64,000 nt of DNA from Anaerolineae bacterium (GTDB lineage: Bacteria; Chloroflexota; Anaerolineae; Aggregatilineales; Ch27), in NCBI GenBank assembly GCA_013178165.1, contig JABLXG010000004.1, forward strand, positions 372,001 through 436,000, given 5' to 3'. The notes under the pieces are model-generated. The model saw only the letters and a list, made by a program, of their open reading frames with translations. It was not told the origin of the DNA and made no database searches. Positions 19,509 through 29,124 of this stretch are shown here, piece by piece. Made by a program: the position numbers and the translations under genes. The first letter of the stretch is position 1. Each line of letters begins with the position of its first letter.

Positions 19509-22373
19509 CTACGCCGTGAAGTCCTGCATGTCCAGCCAGTTGGGGCCGTAACGAGCATCGGCGCGGAGCGGTGCATCCAGGGCAAAGGCCCCTTCCATGG
19601 TCTCGATCACCAGCCGGGCTACCGGCTCCAGCGCCTCTTCAACTACCTCCAGCACCAGTTCGTCATGCACCTGCAGGAGCATCCGGGCCGGATACCCGCC
19701 GGCCTTCAGACGCTTTTGGACCTGGATCATGGCCAGCTTCATGATGTCCGCCGCCGTGCCCTGGATAGGCATATTGATCGCCTGGCGCTCGGCCCGCTGG
19801 CGGGCGATGGCACTGGCCCGGCTGCTGGCAGAAGCCTGTAATTCCGGGAAGTAGCGGCGGCGGCCCAGCAGCGTTTCTAGGTAGCCCTGTGACGCCGCCA
19901 GGCGCTTGGTCTCATCCAGGTAGGCGCGGACACGCGGGAAGCGCTCAAAATAGGCCTGGATGAACGCTTCTGCCTGGGCCAGCGTCAGGTTGCTATCCCG
20001 GGCCAGCCGGAAGGCGCCCATGCCGTATAGCAGGCCAAAGTTGACGCTCTTGGCGAAGCGGCGCTGGTCGTAAGTTACCGCTTCAAAGGGGATGCCGTAG
20101 ACGGTTGCAGCAGTCGTCCGGTGGATGTCCTGGCCCTGGCGGAAGGCTTCCAGCAGGGTTGGGTCCTGGCTAATATGCGCCAGGACGCGCAATTCGACCT
20201 GGCTGTAATCGACCGATAGCAAATAGTGCCCTTCCGGGGCGACAAAAGCCCGCCGGATCTGGCGGCCCTGCTCCGTCCGCACGGGGATGTTCTGCAGGTT
20301 AGGGTTGTCGCTGCTGATCCGCCCGGTGACTGTGCCGGTCTGGTTGAAGCTGGTGTGTAGCCGCCCGGTGTGCGGGTTGACCAGTTCCGGCAGCGCATCG
20401 ACGTAGGTGCCCTTGAGTTTGGTCAGTTCGCGGTGTTCCAGGATCAGGCCAATGATAGGGTGCAGATCGCGCAGGTCTTCCAGCACGTCGGCGGAAGTGG
20501 AAAGGCCGTGCGTGGTCTTGCGGACGCCTTCCGCCGGAAGCTGGAGCTTGCCGAACAGCACATCGTTGAGTTGCTTGGGGCTGTTGATATTGAACGGCCC
20601 GTAGCCGCCTGACTGATCGTAGATTTCCTGTTCCAGCGCGGCCAGACGCGCAGCCAGTTCGGCGCTGATCTGGGCCAGGTAAGCTGTGTCCAGGCGGATA
20701 CCGGCCATCTCCATATCAGCCAGGACGGGCAGAAGAGGTATCTCCAGATCGTCGTACAGCTTAAGGACGCGCTTTTCCTCCAGTTCAGCGCGCAGTGGCG
20801 CTACCAGGCGGAAGGTCACAGCGGCGTCAGCAGCGGCGTAGGAAGCCGCCGCAGGGATGGGTACGCGATCCATGGTGATCTGGTTCTTGCCGCTGCCGAT
20901 CAGATCGGTGATCGGCGTCATTTCCAGTCCCAGCCGGATCCAGGCCAGATTCTTGAGGCCTTTGTTGCGGCTGTCCGGGTCGCACAGCCACTCCGCCACC
21001 ATTGTGTCGAAGCGGATCGGCGTCACGTCCAGCCCGTAGCGGCGCAGGACAATCAGGTCATATTTGGCATTGTGCCCGTACTTGGGGATGCGCGGATCCG
21101 CCAGCGGGTCGCGTAGCGCTGCGATCACCTGTTCCAGTGGCAACTGGCGCAACGCTGCTTCCTCCAGCAGCGGCTCCTGCCTGGCGCCGGGCGGCGGGGT
21201 ATGGCCGACCGGGATGTAGTAGCCGGTCTCCCCGTCCGTAGAGAGCGAGATGCCCACCAGCTCGGCCTGCATCTGGTCGGTGCTGGTCGTCTCCGTGTCA
21301 AAGCTAATGGCGGAGGCGGCCTTCAGCTTGCTGACCAGTTCGGTCAGTGCCTCCTCGTCCTGGACGATGACGGTGGTGGCAATGGCAGCACCTACCCCGC
21401 CATGGGGGGCTGGCGGCGCGGCTTCCTCAGCGGCGGTGAACATGCTGAGCTGCCTGGTAACGCCAGGGGCTGCATGCGCTTCGCCCGCTGGAGCCAGTCG
21501 ACCGATCAGGCTGCGGAACTGCAGGGTGCGGAACAACTCGGCGACGCGATCGCGGTCGTAATCCTGGGCGATGCAGGCAGGCAGGTTGAGCGTCACCGGC
21601 GCGTCGTGGCGGATGCGGGCCAGTTCGCGGCTGAGGAAGGCCATTTCGCGGCCTTCTTCCAGTTTCTGGCGCTGCCCGGCTGGCAATTCAGCCAGATGCG
21701 CGTAGATGCCTTCCAGCGAGCCGTATGCCTTGAGCAGCTTAATGCCGCCTTTCTCACCGATGCCTTTGACGCCAGGGATGTTGTCGGAAGGATCGCCCAT
21801 CAGAGCCTTCAGGTCGACCAGTTGCGGCGGTTCAAGGCCTTCATAGGTCTCGCGGAAAGCTACCGGGTCGAAGACCTGATCGCCATTCCCGGTGCGGCGG
21901 GCAGCGGGCAGGCGGACATGGATGCGTTCGGTGACGAGCTGGAGCAGGTCGCGGTCGCCGGTGACGATCAACACATCGAGGTCCTGGGCAACGGCCTGAT
22001 CGCTCAGCGTGCCAAGCAGGTCGTCGGCTTCGTAGCCGTCGATGCTCAGCAGGGGGATATTGAACGCTTCCACCAGTTCGTGGATGCGTTGCATCTGGAT
22101 GCGCAATTCGTCAGGCATTTTGTCGCGGGTGGCTTTGTAGTCAGGATAAAGCTGATTACGCCCGCTCAGCCCGCGATCGAAGGTGGCCAGCAGGTAATCA
22201 GGACGATCTTTTTCCAGGATATCCAGCAGGGTACGGGCGAAGCCGAAGGTGGCGTTGGTCGGCTCGCCGCCGTGTGTGCTGAAGGATTCCAGGGGCAGGG
22301 CGAAGAACTGGCGGTAAGCCAGGGCGTGCCCGTCAATCATGATCAGGGTTGGGCGTTTGGCTGCACTTGGCAT
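19509..22373 (-). CDS. polA: DNA polymerase I
   Basis: 954 residues from the ATG at 22373 (a TTG 6 bases upstream is possible). Domain order: 5' nuclease (about 8-290, with IDGYEADDLLGT and GDRDLLQL), 3'-5' exonuclease (about 345-530) and family A polymerase (560-954). Exonuclease motifs look intact (FDTETT, GHNAKYD, YAAADA), so proofreading is probably retained. Polymerase motifs A (LSVDYSQVELRVLAH), B (RRFAKSVNFGLLYGMG) and C (VHDELVLE) are present. It fills gaps in repair and removes RNA primers. The length is typical. Confidence 0.98.
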   Translation of the reverse strand: MPSAAKRPTLIMIDGHALAYRQFFALPLESFSTHGGEPTNATFGFARTLLDILEKDRPDYLLATFDRGLSGRNQLYPDYKATRDKMPDELRIQMQRIHELVEAFNIPLLSIDGYEADDLLGTLSDQAVAQDLDVLIVTGDRDLLQLVTERIHVRLPAARRTGNGDQVFDPVAFRETYEGLEPPQLVDLKALMGDPSDNIPGVKGIGEKGGIKLLKAYGSLEGIYAHLAELPAGQRQKLEEGREMAFLSRELARIRHDAPVTLNLPACIAQDYDRDRVAELFRTLQFRSLIGRLAPAGEAHAAPGVTRQLSMFTAAEEAAPPAPHGGVGAAIATTVIVQDEEALTELVSKLKAASAISFDTETTSTDQMQAELVGISLSTDGETGYYIPVGHTPPPGARQEPLLEEAALRQLPLEQVIAALRDPLADPRIPKYGHNAKYDLIVLRRYGLDVTPIRFDTMVAEWLCDPDSRNKGLKNLAWIRLGLEMTPITDLIGSGKNQITMDRVPIPAAASYAAADAAVTFRLVAPLRAELEEKRVLKLYDDLEIPLLPVLADMEMAGIRLDTAYLAQISAELAARLAALEQEIYDQSGGYGPFNINSPKQLNDVLFGKLQLPAEGVRKTTHGLSTSADVLEDLRDLHPIIGLILEHRELTKLKGTYVDALPELVNPHTGRLHTSFNQTGTVTGRISSDNPNLQNIPVRTEQGRQIRRAFVAPEGHYLLSVDYSQVELRVLAHISQDPTLLEAFRQGQDIHRTTAATVYGIPFEAVTYDQRRFAKSVNFGLLYGMGAFRLARDSNLTLAQAEAFIQAYFERFPRVRAYLDETKRLAASQGYLETLLGRRRYFPELQASASSRASAIARQRAERQAINMPIQGTAADIMKLAMIQVQKRLKAGGYPARMLLQVHDELVLEVVEEALEPVARLVIETMEGAFALDAPLRADARYGPNWLDMQDFTA

Positions 22374-22454
22374 GAGCAATCACTCTCCGGGTCTGGCGCT
22401 TCCGGGCGGCGCGGGCGCAGTCAGGTGCGTGGACGCCGCGTTACCTTTTGCTCC

Positions 22455-22503: not shown

Positions 22504-24204
22504 TCAGGTCTGGCGCTGGTAGCTGATGAACTGGGTGACTTCCTGGGCGGTCAGGGGGCGGCCCGGCGTGACCATATAATAGGCGTCGGCCCAGATATCC
22601 GCCGCTGATCCCAGTTCCGGGCGTAATGCCGCCACGCAGCGGGCAGTTTCGCCCATCAGCGTCTGGATGACGCGGGAAAGCGCCTCCTCCGCCGGGATGC
22701 TGAGCACGATGCTCACGTAATCCGGCTGGACTTCAACCTGCTCGGAAGTCCAGCTACGTCCAGCCAGGACGCCATTCAAAGTGGTTGCCAGCGCCCGTAT
22801 CGTGTCCGGGTCAAGTTCGCCGGCCGGGTCGCGCAGGATCCAGGCGCAGGCATAGGTTTCCTGTTTACTGGTTTCCGCCGGTCGGCGTGCATCCGCCACA
22901 GTGCGTGCTGGCCGGGGGGCGTTCTCCCCGGGGGCAGGGGGCGATTCCGGCGCGGCAGAGGGAGGCACAGGCGCAGGAGATTGTGCAGGGGGCGCTTCTG
23001 GCATGGGCGCGGCGATTTCCGGTTCAGCAGCCCCACTGGCGGACGGTGTCTGTTCTTCCGGTGGGATGTGAGCTGTGCGTGACAGGGCCTCTACAATAGC
23101 CCGCGTCTGCTGACGGATGGTACGCAGGTGCATATTTTCCGGGTAGACCGTCATCAGCACCATGTCCTCGACCGTCGGGGCCGCTACAACCATGTAGTTG
23201 GCTCGCGATTCCGGCAGCGTGGCAAACTTGATCTTGGTAGTACCTTCCGCCAGCACCGTCTGCCAGTCAATAACCTCGACCAGCCGGCGCACCTCTTCGG
23301 GGGGGAGTTGGCCAGCTACCGCGATAACCTGGCCCTGCTGGATCAGCACGCTGGCCTGTGCCGCTGATTCGAGGGTATGCTGGGTCAGTTCCAGGGCCAG
23401 GGCAGCGGCCCGGATATCCGCGCTGGTCGGTTCGGCGCCCGGTCGGACAGGGCGTGTCCTGGCGGCAGGCAGATGCGGAAGCGGTGCAGGGCCGGCGCGA
23501 TCGGGGGAGGCAGTGCTGGCGACGAGTTCGGCGGTATCGGCCAGGGCGGTGGAAGGCGTTTCTTCAATCATCTCTTCGGGGATGTCAATCACACCGGCAT
23601 GATCCTGTGGTGTTGCAGCGCTGGCAACGGCGATCAGATCGCTGATTGTGCCGCTGTCTTCCAGGCCCGGCAAGGGCGGCTCTTCCGCCGCCAGGCGGAG
23701 GAAGCTATCGTCCGCTAGGGGTGGCTCCTCAACCGGGGTGACTGGCTGGCCTCCGGGCGGCCCGGCCAGCGACTCGCTTCGCTTCAGCAGTGACGGCTTT
23801 TCCCCTGGCGTGCGCAAAGAGTCCACCCGGGTTGCCAGAGACTGCCCTTCGGTCAGGGCGTATTCCAGCAGCGGGAGCACCTCACGGGCGGCATAGTTAC
23901 CGCGCACGACTCCCTGCGGGCTGAGCAGGCGCATAGTCTCGGTGTCTGGCTCGGTAGCCGCACGCAGCACAATGGGCAGGCCGGGGCGGATTTCCCGGAG
24001 GCGCATAGCCAGCGCCACTGGCGGCATATCGCCCAGATTGAGCGCGATGACCGCCAGATCGGGTGGATGGAGCGCTGCGTGTTCCAGGGCGGCCTGACCG
24101 GTGACAAAGGCATCTGCTTCGTACAGGCCAGTGCGCTCAATAGCCCGCGTGATACGGGCCAGGGCTGCGGCTTCGCTGTCAACGAAAAGTATCCGGCTGA
24201 ACAT
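22504..24204 (-). CDS. Pseudo-receiver protein with a dead IS200/Y1-transposase-like C-terminal domain
   Basis: 566 residues from the ATG at 24204 (GAGGGAG ribosome site). Residues 1-115 have the receiver fold pattern (ILFVDSE, then ALNLGDMPP) but Asn56 replaces the phosphorylated Asp. About 265-385 may be a roadblock/longin-like domain (weak). A Pro/Ala-rich linker (about 390-445) follows. Residues 450-566 resemble Y1 (IS200/TnpA) transposases: VEVQPDYVSIVLSIP aligns with the HUH motif strand, WADAYYMVTPG with the next, and FISYQ with the helix bearing the catalytic Tyr. The HUH histidines (Y-V-S, 496-498) and the Tyr (Phe559) are all lost, so it should bind but not cut DNA. It has its own promoter. 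Confidence 0.8.
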   Translation of the reverse strand: MFSRILFVDSEAAALARITRAIERTGLYEADAFVTGQAALEHAALHPPDLAVIALNLGDMPPVALAMRLREIRPGLPIVLRAATEPDTETMRLLSPQGVVRGNYAAREVLPLLEYALTEGQSLATRVDSLRTPGEKPSLLKRSESLAGPPGGQPVTPVEEPPLADDSFLRLAAEEPPLPGLEDSGTISDLIAVASAATPQDHAGVIDIPEEMIEETPSTALADTAELVASTASPDRAGPAPLPHLPAARTRPVRPGAEPTSADIRAAALALELTQHTLESAAQASVLIQQGQVIAVAGQLPPEEVRRLVEVIDWQTVLAEGTTKIKFATLPESRANYMVVAAPTVEDMVLMTVYPENMHLRTIRQQTRAIVEALSRTAHIPPEEQTPSASGAAEPEIAAPMPEAPPAQSPAPVPPSAAPESPPAPGENAPRPARTVADARRPAETSKQETYACAWILRDPAGELDPDTIRALATTLNGVLAGRSWTSEQVEVQPDYVSIVLSIPAEEALSRVIQTLMGETARCVAALRPELGSAADIWADAYYMVTPGRPLTAQEVTQFISYQRQT

Positions 24205-24271: not shown

Positions 24272-25021
24272 TCAGTCGACGATCGGCGCTGCCGCGCAAC
24301 TGGTCAGAGCTGTGCTATAGGCTGGATCAGCCGAGACCCAGGCAACCTGGCCGCCCCGATTGATACGGTACCAGGTGCGGGCGGCATTCTGACCGGTGAC
24401 GGCCAGCACCTCGCCCAGTTCCAACAGACCGAGAACCGTGTAGGTGGTGCCCGGCCCACTGCGGTAGCGCAGGTTACCGATGTTGACGCGCACCTGGCAG
24501 GCTGTCCCCGCTTCCGCCGGGGCCGCTGCTGGTTGTACGCCGAAGGGGACAGGCGTGGCCAGCACATCAGCGCGGCGCTGCCGGATGATCAGTGTCAGGG
24601 GAACTGGCTCGCTGGCGACGTCGCGCCGGTAGGCGATCACTTCCAGATCATGCTGTCCGGCGCGTGTGGGTGTCCAGGAGAGGATGGCGTCCATGATCGG
24701 CTGGCCGTTGCGCTCCGGTGAGGGCACGCTGCTGAGCATGGCCGTGGCCGAGCGCAATTCCAGCCGGGTGATCCCGACGCTGTCGGTGGCGTTGACGCGC
24801 ACGGTCACCTCGTTGCGGACGACGAATTCGCTGCCGCTGGGCGGCCACAGCACCACAACCTGCGGGCGGCCTTGCGGAACAGCGGTCGGGGGGTGGGCAG
24901 GTGTTCCGGCAGGGCCGCCACCGACCAGATTGCAGGCCAGCCCGGCCAGCAGGATCAGCGACGCCAGTATGATCCCCACCCGCCGGTCACAGCGACGGTT
25001 GCCTGGGGCGGCGCAGGTCAT
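24272..25021 (-). CDS. SH3/Ig-like lipoprotein (paralogue of the next gene upstream)
   Basis: 249 residues. A lipobox (LILLAGLAC, Cys near 30) ends a short signal peptide, so it should be a membrane-anchored lipoprotein. An Ig-like domain (about 50-145, starting with WPPSGSEFVVRNEV) is followed by an SH3b domain (about 172-240: RVNIGNLRYRSGPGTTYTVL ... GQVAWVSADP), typical of cell-surface proteins. The ATG overlaps the stop of the upstream lipoprotein gene by 4 bases. The two proteins share the same Ig-like plus SH3b order, so they arose by tandem duplication. The ligand is unknown; cell-wall or surface binding is the family expectation. Confidence 0.85.
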   Translation of the reverse strand: MTCAAPGNRRCDRRVGIILASLILLAGLACNLVGGGPAGTPAHPPTAVPQGRPQVVVLWPPSGSEFVVRNEVTVRVNATDSVGITRLELRSATAMLSSVPSPERNGQPIMDAILSWTPTRAGQHDLEVIAYRRDVASEPVPLTLIIRQRRADVLATPVPFGVQPAAAPAEAGTACQVRVNIGNLRYRSGPGTTYTVLGLLELGEVLAVTGQNAARTWYRINRGGQVAWVSADPAYSTALTSCAAAPIVD

Positions 25022-26238
25022 GGTCCCACCGGCGTCAGGGCCAGCCCGCCGCCCGGCAGGGTGATCAACAGGCCGGGCAGCGTGGTGACGACCACGTTTA
25101 ATGTGCGGATGTTGTTGCCTTCGTCGGATTCTGCCACCTGCGCGCCGCTGTCCACAAAGGCCTCCAGACGGTAGGTGTTAGAGGCGGTGAACAGCACATC
25201 CACGCCCAGGTCGGCGTACTGCGCCGGGGCCAGGTTGACAACAATCGGCAACTGGATGACCGAGCCATCTGGCTGGCGGAAGCTGGTGGTGAACTGCCCG
25301 CTGCTGCCTGTGCCCTGGTTATAGACGCGGACGGTATAACGCGCTCCGACAGTGCCTGTGGCATTCAACTGGAGCACCTCCGGGCCGGTAATGGTGCTCA
25401 CGACCAGGTCGGGGATGCTGGGCGTGGGCGAGGAGGTCGGTGTGGGTGAGCCGGGAATCGGGCTGGGCGTGAAGGTTGCCGTGGGTGTGGCGGTAGCCGG
25501 GCGTGGGGTGGGGCTGGGCGGCGGCACAGCCACCGGAATCAGGCTACAATCGCCCGATTCGCTGGTGTAGGTGGCGCTCAGCCAGCCGATTTCCAGGCCG
25601 CTGCGTACCTGCCACCAGCTATTGTCCCCCAACCGGCCAATGATATCCACCAGTGTGCCAGCTTCCAGCACACGCAGGATGGGGTAGTTGGTGCCAGGGC
25701 CGGTACGGAAGTTCAGGCCGGAGACTTCCACACGGGCGCGGCAGGTGCGATCCTCAGGCGGAGGCAGGGTGACACCGCTCGGCGGCGGCAGCGTGGCGGT
25801 GATCTGGGCCGCGTTCTGCCGCACGAGCAACGTGATCCGCGCCGGTGCGCTGGCGATCAGACCGCGGTAAGCGATGACCTCCAGATTCGCCACCCCGGCT
25901 TCGTTCGGAATCCAGGACTGAATGACGGAGAACAACCGCTCGCCGTTGCTCGACTGGGCGCTGACCGTATTGACGATGAAGCTGTTGACACGCAACTCAA
26001 CGCGGGTGACTCCGATGCTATCCTGGGCGGTTGATTGCACCAGCACTTCCTGGCCGATCACCACTTCGCTGCCATTCGGTGGGCTGTTGATCACCACATT
26101 GGGCACGCTGAGGGGCGAGGTTGGCGTGACCACGCCTCCTGCGCCTGGCAGCAGAGCCGTCAGGTTGCAGCCCAGCGCCCCGAATGCCAGCGCCGCGAGT
26201 ATCATCAGCATACGCCGCCACCGCTGCAGTTGGTTCAC
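25018..26238 (-). CDS. Ig-like/SH3/CARDB surface lipoprotein
   Basis: About 406 residues from a GTG at 26238 with GAGGAG 6 bases upstream; this gives a classical lipoprotein signal peptide with lipobox (AFGALGC). Order: Ig-like domain beginning INSPPNGSEVVIGQEV, SH3b domain (ARVEVSGLNFRTGPGTNYPIL ... GWLSATY), a Pro/Thr/Ser-rich linker of about 40 residues, then a CARDB-like adhesion domain (PDLVVSTI ... AESDEGNN). It is probably a surface adhesin or sensor. It forms an operon with the paralogue at 24272-25021. Confidence 0.85.
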   Translation of the reverse strand: MNQLQRWRRMLMILAALAFGALGCNLTALLPGAGGVVTPTSPLSVPNVVINSPPNGSEVVIGQEVLVQSTAQDSIGVTRVELRVNSFIVNTVSAQSSNGERLFSVIQSWIPNEAGVANLEVIAYRGLIASAPARITLLVRQNAAQITATLPPPSGVTLPPPEDRTCRARVEVSGLNFRTGPGTNYPILRVLEAGTLVDIIGRLGDNSWWQVRSGLEIGWLSATYTSESGDCSLIPVAVPPPSPTPRPATATPTATFTPSPIPGSPTPTSSPTPSIPDLVVSTITGPEVLQLNATGTVGARYTVRVYNQGTGSSGQFTTSFRQPDGSVIQLPIVVNLAPAQYADLGVDVLFTASNTYRLEAFVDSGAQVAESDEGNNIRTLNVVVTTLPGLLITLPGGGLALTPVGP

Positions 26239-26379
26239 GGAATGCTCCTCATTCGCTGCCTGATCAGCTATCCTCGGCGATGAAGCTGCCGGGAGAGCGG
26301 TTGATGTTTGCTGGTCTGATTCTATCATGGCGCAGCGGCGCGGGGCGAGTCTTCCGGGCGCGGGCTTGACCTGTGTGCT

Positions 26380-26409
26380 AATATAGAAGTAGCGTGGTGG
26401 CACAGGCAA
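26380..26409 (-). promoter_or_regulatory. Candidate promoter of the lipoprotein operon
   Basis: TATATT (26380-26385) with TTGCCT (26404-26409) 18 bases upstream on the minus strand. The leader would be about 135 bases. Confidence 0.35.
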
Positions 26410-26540: not shown

Positions 26541-26596
26541 TAAACGCTATTCATCAATCTTATGCGAAGACGATGTGATTATCGGAGGTGGCTCGC

Positions 26597-27514
26597 GTGA
26601 CACTCCAGGGCAATCTTAAAGACTTCAGCACCAGCCAGATCCTCAACCTGATTAACCTGGCCCAGAAATCCGGCACGTTGACCATTTTTGCCAATGTGCC
26701 GGATAATCCTGAAGAGCTTGGCCAGCCGACCTCGGTCACCACCAGTACCTCACTCAAACGGGCGCGGATAGTCTTCCAGCAGGGGAAGCCCGTGCTCAGC
26801 ATGGTGGAGGTGCGCGATCTGGTGGCCCTGCTGCGGCGGACGGGCAAGCTCAGTCCCATGCAGGCGCACTGGATTCAAAACCGGCTCAAGGACGTGAACG
26901 AGAAGGCCCAGGCCCTGCTGCTGATCGAGGGCGATTTTGTGACCAAAGCGGACATCGTGGAAGCCTTCACCGAGCAACTCAAAGAAGACATCCATACTGT
27001 GCTGATGTGGACGGATGGCTCCTTCCTGTTTGAGGAGCAGACACCTGCGCTGGACGATCACATCACCGTCTCGGTCGATCTGGGCGATGTGCTGGTGGAA
27101 CACGGCTCGCATGTTCGGGAAGTGCTGCGCATGACCCAGGAATTGCCCAACCTGAGTGCGACGCTGCGCTTTACGCCGGATGTCGACGAGCGGCTGCAGC
27201 ACACCCGGCTTAGCGCGCGAGCCTGGCGCGTGATCTCGTCAATCAAGCCGGGAGTCAGCATCCGCCAGATCGCCCGGCAGAACCAGATGGACGCAATGGA
27301 AGTCCGCCGGGTGGTGATCAGTCTGCTGCAGGCCGGGGTGGTAGAGCTGGGCGATCCGGTCAAGGGAGAGGAAGTAGAAGTGCCGCCCCCCGGCGATTTT
27401 GCCCTGGAAAGCACTGATCCCTCGATCTTCGACACGCTGATCGAAGGCATCCAGAGCGCCGCTGAACGGCTGATCGATACCGATTCGCTGCAGGATGATG
27501 GCCAGTCTGCCTGA
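26597..27514 (+). CDS. DUF4388 (PatA-like N-terminal) domain protein
   Basis: 305 residues. The GTG at 26597 is chosen because GGAGGT lies 7 bases upstream; a GTG at 26588 would overlap that site. The N-terminus (TLQGNLKDFSTSQILNLINLAQKSGTL) is the typical start of DUF4388, a domain found in gliding, fruiting and other signalling proteins. The middle part (about 85-175) repeats a similar fold. A C-terminal winged-helix-like region (about 210-255: ARAWRVISSIKPGVSIRQIA ... ISLLQAGVVEL) suggests nucleic-acid or protein binding. A clear terminator follows. The function is not known beyond family association. Confidence 0.85.
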   Translation: MTLQGNLKDFSTSQILNLINLAQKSGTLTIFANVPDNPEELGQPTSVTTSTSLKRARIVFQQGKPVLSMVEVRDLVALLRRTGKLSPMQAHWIQNRLKDVNEKAQALLLIEGDFVTKADIVEAFTEQLKEDIHTVLMWTDGSFLFEEQTPALDDHITVSVDLGDVLVEHGSHVREVLRMTQELPNLSATLRFTPDVDERLQHTRLSARAWRVISSIKPGVSIRQIARQNQMDAMEVRRVVISLLQAGVVELGDPVKGEEVEVPPPGDFALESTDPSIFDTLIEGIQSAAERLIDTDSLQDDGQSA

Positions 27515-27541
27515 GCGCAACAGCGGGAGTTGTGGCCGGAT

Positions 27542-27567
27542 AGCCGGGAACCAGCCCGGCTGTTTTT
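27542..27567 (+). terminator. Rho-independent terminator of the DUF4388 gene
   Basis: 7-bp stem AGCCGGG/CCCGGCT (27542-27548, 27555-27561), 6-base loop, then TTTTT at 27563-27567. It lies between two convergent genes. Confidence 0.8.
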
Positions 27568-27574
27568 GATCCGC

Positions 27575-29068
27575 TCACGGATCAGGCGGGCTGACCATCG
27601 CCAAGCGAAAATACCCAGTTACCGGGGGAGCGCCCACTACCGCCGTCGCGATGCCCTGCGCTAACAGCAGCGAGTCTGGTATGAGGCTGACCAGTCGCCC
27701 GGCGTTGATCGTCCGGATAGTCAGGACAAAGACGATCAGGGCGATAATCGCGGCCAGGGCCAGTAACCAGATCACCAGGGCAACCCGGTTGAGGGTTGTG
27801 GCGGGTCGGCGCCGGGGACGGGGTGGCGTGTTGCCGAGGACCTGACGCGCTGCCTGCTTGCGGGGTGGTGCTGCGGCGGCGGGCGTTACAGCGGGTGCAC
27901 CAGCGGGTGTAGCAGGCCGGGCATGGCTGTCAGCGGGCTGACGCGCCGGGGCGGCCTGCGGCGACGCAGCCATCGCCCGCGACCATTCCGGCAGGGAAGG
28001 GGGTTCCGCCTGACCCGGCACGGCGGCCAGCGAGTCTTCCGGCAGGGGAGGGACATCGGCGGCCATGGTCACACCGCCGGGTGCGGCCAGCGGTACCGCC
28101 TGAGCCATGGATGCGGCAGGGGCAGCGACGGCGTCGGCAGGAGGAGTCGGTTGCAGGGCCAGGGCGCTGGCCGGCAGGGAAAAGGTGAAGAAACCTGTCG
28201 GTTCGCCGAGGCTCGCGCCTGCGGCAGTGCGAAAGGTTGTGGCAAAATCCCCGATTGCCGGGTACCGCTCCGCCGGGAGCTTGGCCAGTGCCCGCTCCAC
28301 GGCTGGCGAGAGCGCCTCCGGCAGGTCGGAGCGCAGGGTATGTATTGACGGCGGTGGTTCGTTGAGATGCTTGTGCATCAGGATGTGGGCGGTGGTGGCT
28401 TCAAAGGGCAGGTGGCCGGTCAGGGTGTTGAAGATCAGGATGCCCAGCGCATACTGATCGACGGCCGGGGTCAGCGGCTCGTCGCGCCATTGCTCGGGGG
28501 CCATATAATTGGGCGTGCCGATGGTCGTCCCGGCGGCGGTCAGGCTGAGGTCGGCATTCATGATCCGGGCGATGCCGAAGTCCACCAGGTGCGGCGTGCC
28601 CTGGTGATCAAAGACGACGTTGCTCGGCTTGATGTCGCGGTGGATGATCCCACGCCCGTGAGCGTAAGCCAGCGCGTCCGCCAGGGCGTCCAGCAGATCG
28701 GCAACTTCACCGACGGAAGGCAGCGGGTGGCCGCCCTCCTGGCTGTAGCGCAGACGCTGGGCCAGCGAACCGCCCGTGAGCAGCCGCATGACCACATACA
28801 GCAGGCCATCCTGAGTGCCGTAGTCGTAGATAGGGACGATGTGGGGGTGTTCCAGCGCGGCGGCGGTGCGGGCTTCCAGGGCGAAGCGCTGCTGGTAGTC
28901 GGAATCGGTGGCCAGTTGGGTGGCCAGGACCTTGATGGCGACCTCGCGGGCCAGGGCGGGCTGGTAAGCGCGGTAGACGGCGCTCATGCCGCCCAGGCCG
29001 ATCAGCTCCTCAAGGATGTATTGGCCGAGCCGTCGGCTGGCCAGCCGGCGGATATCGACAGCGGTCAT
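27575..29068 (-). CDS. Membrane-anchored Ser/Thr protein kinase (Hanks type)
   Basis: 497 residues from the ATG at 29068, preferred over one 27 bases upstream because GGAGGG is correctly spaced. The kinase domain (about 15-280) is complete: glycine loop IGLGGMSAVYRA, VAIKVL lysine, HRDIKPSN catalytic loop, VDFGIAR, and GTPNYMAPEQW activation segment. A Pro/Ala-rich linker (about 290-430) leads to one membrane helix (VALVIWLLALAAIIALIVFVL) and a short outer tail without PASTA repeats. It phosphorylates proteins on Ser/Thr at the membrane; targets are unknown. Confidence 0.93.
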   Translation of the reverse strand: MTAVDIRRLASRRLGQYILEELIGLGGMSAVYRAYQPALAREVAIKVLATQLATDSDYQQRFALEARTAAALEHPHIVPIYDYGTQDGLLYVVMRLLTGGSLAQRLRYSQEGGHPLPSVGEVADLLDALADALAYAHGRGIIHRDIKPSNVVFDHQGTPHLVDFGIARIMNADLSLTAAGTTIGTPNYMAPEQWRDEPLTPAVDQYALGILIFNTLTGHLPFEATTAHILMHKHLNEPPPSIHTLRSDLPEALSPAVERALAKLPAERYPAIGDFATTFRTAAGASLGEPTGFFTFSLPASALALQPTPPADAVAAPAASMAQAVPLAAPGGVTMAADVPPLPEDSLAAVPGQAEPPSLPEWSRAMAASPQAAPARQPADSHARPATPAGAPAVTPAAAAPPRKQAARQVLGNTPPRPRRRPATTLNRVALVIWLLALAAIIALIVFVLTIRTINAGRLVSLIPDSLLLAQGIATAVVGAPPVTGYFRLAMVSPPDP

Positions 29069-29124
29069 CGCGGTGCCCTCCAGCGTGCCGGTCATAGATA
29101 TGGATCGGCGGCGGTGATGCGCCC

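Follow-up and report, generated by a model that had tools for sequence, protein, structure and literature searches.

What becomes of a transposase that sits at the end of a signalling protein and has lost both its HUH histidines and its catalytic tyrosine? The question is raised by one gene in the 64,000-nt stretch of Anaerolineae DNA analyzed here (the window), whose product a preliminary description had read as a receiver fold joined to a catalytically dead IS200/Y1 transposase domain. The 566-aa reading frame is genuine, with an ATG start and a start Met common to the homologues. Both ends of the proposed architecture were upheld, but a roadblock/LC7 domain between them (residues 265-378) had been overlooked. 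The protein consists of a pseudoreceiver, a roadblock domain and a dead Y1 domain, with fast-evolving linkers between them:

22504-24204, minus strand: whole gene, translated ORF of 566 aa (pseudoreceiver, roadblock/LC7, dead Y1)
23845-24204, minus strand: receiver-fold domain, approximately residues 1-120, phosphorylation site lost (PF00072, homologues, site residues)
24043-24045, minus strand: Ala54, at the position of the receiver phospho-acceptor Asp (CheY alignment)
23413-23844, minus strand: linker, residues 121-264, variable and presumably disordered; lengths strongly unequal among homologues
23071-23412, minus strand: roadblock/LC7-like domain, residues 265-378 (profile, AlphaFold, Foldseek, VIA)
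22858-23070, minus strand: Pro/Ala-rich linker, residues 379-449; 42% identity and dN/dS 0.40 to the sister species
22507-22857, minus strand: catalytically dead Y1/IS200 transposase domain, residues 450-566 (PF01797, PDB profile, AlphaFold, fold search)
22711-22719, minus strand: Tyr496-Val-Ser498 at the HUH positions (alignment)
22528-22530, minus strand: Phe559 at the catalytic Tyr position (alignment)

The pseudoreceiver and the roadblock domain

The N-terminal domain scored 29.5 bits against PF00072 (E = 8.8e-7), 0.7 bit short of the cut-off of 30.2, and the same family was matched by 20/20 homologues. Aligned with CheY, its site has D-S at the acid pair, Ala54 at the acceptor position, and Ala and Gly in place of the Thr and the Lys; the acid pair was found in 0/36 members. 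The preliminary description had rightly noted the loss of the phosphorylated Asp but had assigned it to Asn56, a candidate rejected here because that residue lies two positions beyond Ala54 in the CheY alignment. Judging from these site residues, the receiver fold of the window protein is predicted to be incapable of phosphorylation. Its earlier characterization as a non-phosphorylated receiver can be relied on only within the window's family and does not generalize, because most relatives outside that family still have the acceptor Asp.

A Pfam scan misses the middle domain, with no match to Robl_LC7 (PF03259) among 35 family members. Profile comparison of residues 265-378 retrieved LAMTOR2 and MglB only, at a weak best E-value of 0.001. 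The AlphaFold model of these residues has a pLDDT of 92.0; Foldseek ranked MglB first (2.4e-6), with LAMTOR and other roadblock proteins also matching, and VIA gave a Z of 13.0. Because a weak profile match is here combined with a confident structure model, residues 265-378 are assigned, as modelled, to the roadblock/LC7 fold, as a distant relative. Roadblock proteins control small Ras-like GTPases, and in Myxococcus the receiver proteins RomR, FrzS and AglZ act jointly with the roadblock proteins MglB and MglC on MglA (PMC4316618, PMC12719032). The window's genome encodes MglA-like GTPases (L135, L136) as well as stand-alone roadblock proteins; none of the neighbors of the window gene is an MglA gene.

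The Y1 domain and its lost active site

Residues 450-566 matched Pfam Y1_Tnp (PF01797) with 35.8 bits (E = 1e-8; cut-off 23), and 18/20 homologous domains matched the same family. When a profile of 20 homologues was compared with the PDB, the top eight matches were TnpA sequences, with E-values between 8.7e-15 (2f4f) and about 8e-8 (IS608), and the next match followed at E = 0.13. The AlphaFold model (mean pLDDT 93.6) has an HUH-type fold with the topology beta-alpha-beta-beta-alpha-beta-alpha, for which Foldseek returned ISDra2, IS200 and IS608 TnpA at the top ranks. VIA superposed it on TnpA 2fyx with a Z of 14.9 and an RMSD of 2.6 over 114 residues, and on the REP transposase 4er8 with a Z of 8.9. 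Every fused domain and every TnpA in the comparison has the structural Trp, W538; within the fused domains R549 is invariant and Y542 nearly so. The Pfam, PDB-profile, AlphaFold, Foldseek and VIA results make true homology to Y1/IS200 TnpA secure, as the preliminary description had proposed, and the profile and structure results rule out a chance resemblance.

The catalytic residues are gone. Among true TnpAs of the same class (n = 21), His occupies the first HUH position in 21/21 and the second in 19/21, and all 21 have the catalytic Tyr; the window domain has Tyr496, Ser498 and Phe559 at these positions, so that the substitutions first described (Y-V-S at 496-498, Phe559) are borne out by alignment. 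An intact HUH motif was seen in 0/36 homologues examined. The catalytic Tyr is lost in 25/26 members of the window's order, one member retaining it, and is retained in 8/10 members of sister lineages. The third metal ligand, a Gln four residues after the Tyr, is still present in the window domain (Q563) and in 16/26 of the order. The sister-lineage Y1 domains of family f34 (L091, L093, L095-L100), in which Y-L-Q replaces HUH, the Tyr is mostly retained and the domain is mildly basic, are an intermediate state.

Distribution, origin and gene neighborhood

The Y1 domain occurs in 132/151 genomes of the window's order (E <= 1e-20, at least 79 bits), almost always in one copy and for the most part within long ORFs; three weak matches from a tally of 135 are left out of this count. 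Stand-alone TnpAs in genomes of the order reached at most 64 bits, as against at least 79 for the fused domains. Searching the genome contigs with the single protein retrieved one relative only. Elsewhere in the class, fused forms were found in families f34, f41, f42 and f58, and the remaining matches in the phylum are nearly all short, stand-alone-sized frames. Near-universal and single-copy, the gene is therefore a long-established part of the core genome rather than a mobile element. Homologues across the order keep both the domain and its substitutions, and this conservation of a dead Y1 domain, C-terminal to a non-canonical receiver, supports the view that a transposase fold was exapted.

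A trivial origin was also considered, in which a transposase frame came to lie behind an unrelated gene through a recent IS200 insertion or an error of assembly. True IS200 copies do exist in genomes of the order: contig C1 of G068 (L120) carries about eleven stand-alone IS200-type TnpA copies beside the dead fused domain. Nevertheless, the same fused domain is present in more than 100 assemblies (132 genomes in all), HUH is absent throughout, and the window gene is the sole PF01797 match in its own genome, so that we regard this origin as ruled out for practical purposes.

Between the window gene and that of a congener, dN/dS took values of 0.04 (receiver), 0.07 (roadblock domain), 0.21 (Y1 domain) and 0.40 (adjoining linker, 379-449); linker 121-264 stood at 0.13 against 0.04 in the receiver. 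The value of 0.21, as compared with 0.40 in the adjoining linker, indicates purifying selection on the Y1 domain. Its higher rate in comparison with the receiver and the roadblock domain would be expected of an accidental fusion relic, non-functional and drifting, but such a relic is very unlikely given that the domain evolves more slowly than the linker, is intact and foldable, is conserved in 132/151 genomes and keeps W538 and R549 invariant and Y542 nearly so.

Other families of the class have two-domain homologues (~270-330 aa), with receiver and roadblock only, whose sequence stops at the roadblock domain. In a tree of fused domains and TnpAs, the fused domains all fall on one side of a branch (support 97/91), and in the unrooted roadblock tree the two-domain and three-domain forms are split by a 97/91 branch; the roadblock proteins of the window's own genome did not match the roadblock profile and hence could not serve as an outgroup. 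Most likely, a single capture from an IS200-type element added the Y1 domain to the end of an older gene for receiver and roadblock, already next to polA. As the roadblock tree is unrooted, capture of a TnpA frame is the simplest reading of these sequences, and the two-domain forms may instead have lost Y1. Family f3 of the same order contains what is apparently a second, independent Y1 fusion, a 693-aa protein with squalene-hopene-cyclase-type repeats and a C-terminal Y1_Tnp domain (E = 7.8e-19) in which only the first His is retained (DHVRL; L103 1322-3403, plus strand).

The immediate neighbors of the window gene are:

19509-22379, minus strand: polA, immediately downstream (PF00476)
24272-25021, minus strand: bacterial SH3/Ig-domain protein, upstream, a recurrent neighbor
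25018-26409, minus strand: SH3/Ig/CARDB-domain protein, upstream, a recurrent neighbor

Adjacency to polA recurs for three-domain genes in several families and also in another order, and a two-domain homologue (L173 6183-6989, minus strand) lies 6 bases from polA. The linkage was rejected as a hint of a DNA-related role of Y1: it is uninformative on this point because the same neighbor is seen where Y1 is absent. A DUF4388 gene (26588-27514, plus strand) and, on the opposite strand, a Ser/Thr kinase gene adjoin the cluster within window positions 26588-29095. We take DUF4388 to be the PATAN domain. A DUF4388-like paralogue, resembling the 26588-27514 protein, adjoins an MglA-like GTPase in L136, and PATAN genes near MglA/MglB have been described (PMC4316618). 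A further recurrent upstream neighbor (7 loci; L045 4312-5004) has no Pfam match, and L136 contains a look-alike close to its MglA-like gene.

Possible roles and known counterparts

In the window's order, the net charge of the Y1 domain ranges from -2 to -17 (median -8; negative in 26/26), as compared with +2 to +8 in sister lineages (n = 10) and +4 to +12 in true TnpAs of the same class (n = 21). Positions 517, 540 and 460, which carry Lys/Arg in at least 15/21 TnpAs, are Met, Asp and Pro in the window. Most of the conserved TnpA Lys/Arg residues have been lost in the order, and the sister lineages retain one such position. Given an acidic domain in this order and basic stand-alone TnpAs, binding of hairpin DNA, the role suggested at first, appears unlikely for the window's order on the basis of residue composition. 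Acidity alone is no proof of lost nucleic-acid binding, because the whole protein is acidic in the order, mainly via its linkers; loss of the Tyr alone also leaves binding possible, because the ISDra2 Y132F mutant structure was solved DNA-bound (2xo6).

These data bear on the proposal that the dead domain recognizes hairpin or single-stranded DNA or RNA without cutting it, the protein tethering signalling to nucleic acid, for example in replication or repair. TnpA and TnpAREP are hairpin binders, the sister lineages are mildly basic and retain the Tyr and one Lys/Arg position, and polA is a conserved neighbor of the fused gene. Against this stand the acidic domain in 26/26 of the order, with Met, Asp and Pro now at basic positions, and a polA adjacency that is silent on Y1. 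We consider this role improbable, though to be kept in view. Its bolder form, in which the dead transposase is a structure-specific reader of nucleic acids wired to a roadblock-small GTPase switch, which would be the first case of a dead HUH domain employed in signalling, is a speculation that we rate somewhat lower; a reader of this kind may be envisaged above all for the sister lineages, with their retained Tyr and mildly basic surface.

Ligand binding is frequent among ferredoxin-like folds, and the emptied active site of the Y1 domain, with its acidic surface, is a possible pocket. The domain could then be a small-ligand sensor (ACT/RAM-like) controlling roadblock-GTPase output; we consider this unlikely, as a ligand-site signature was not found in the Y1 domain and other ferredoxin-like folds match it clearly less well (VIA Z of 8.4 or less, against 14.9).

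Computation establishes the three folds, the loss of both active sites, the order-wide conservation and the existence of homologues without the third domain. The explanation towards which we lean, with some reserve, is a cytoplasmic pseudoreceiver-roadblock signalling scaffold that gained a dead TnpA as a dimerization or protein-docking module. By analogy with RomR and FrzS in the Myxococcus polarity system, the pseudoreceiver would dock a partner; the roadblock domain, as we infer from its modelled fold, would dimerize and bind a small Ras-like GTPase of the MglA type; and the former transposase, whose fold is dimeric in IS608 and ISDra2, would now mediate dimerization or protein docking and no longer bind hairpin DNA. 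It thus appears that an enzyme of selfish DNA has become a component of a host switch and no longer cuts. The homologues form a graded series, from no Y1, through Y1 with Tyr and a mild positive charge, to acidic Y1 without Tyr, and the conversion of a selfish enzyme into a host module is therefore directly testable stage by stage.

We found no published description of this fusion of receiver, roadblock and dead Y1 domains, in a partial coverage of the literature that makes this absence weak evidence; the passages found of a 2022 review on exaptation in prokaryotes (PMC8987985) contain no comparable case. Quentin et al. 2018 (PMC6006769), in classifying Y1 proteins, set aside as probably non-functional those sequences in which HUH or Y is missing.

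Compared with known systems, the window domain shares with IS200/IS605 TnpA (PF01797; IS608, ISDra2 and 2f4f-type) the sequence family and the full fold, the invariant Trp (W538), the conserved Tyr542 and, in Gln563, the metal-coordinating Gln position. It differs in lacking HUH and the catalytic Tyr, in being acidic rather than basic, and in forming the C-terminal part of a 566-aa host protein that is not mobile. TnpAREP/RAYT proteins are likewise a host-domesticated Y1 fold, but they retain HUH-Y and act on REP hairpins, whereas in the window's family the motif is gone and the fold match is weaker (Z 8.9, 4er8). To our knowledge, the known domesticated Y1 transposases (RAYTs) all retain their chemistry, unlike the domain described here, whose fold persists throughout an order although its chemistry is lost and its surface charge has changed sign. 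CSB-PGBD3 (PMC2268245) is also a host gene with a fused transposase domain under selection, but the transposase is of an unrelated type and the host a eukaryote.

On the signalling side, MglB/MglC and LAMTOR have the same roadblock/LC7 fold as residues 265-378, which differ in standing between a receiver and a Y1 domain and in escaping Pfam Robl_LC7. RomR and FrzS of the Myxococcus MglA polarity module resemble the window protein in their receiver or pseudoreceiver fold, their long linker and a presumed connection with roadblock proteins and with a small GTPase. In the window protein, by contrast, receiver and roadblock are joined in one polypeptide that additionally carries Y1, and the GTPase partner is a putative one; this fusion suggests a one-polypeptide version of the division among RomR, MglC and MglB in Myxococcus.
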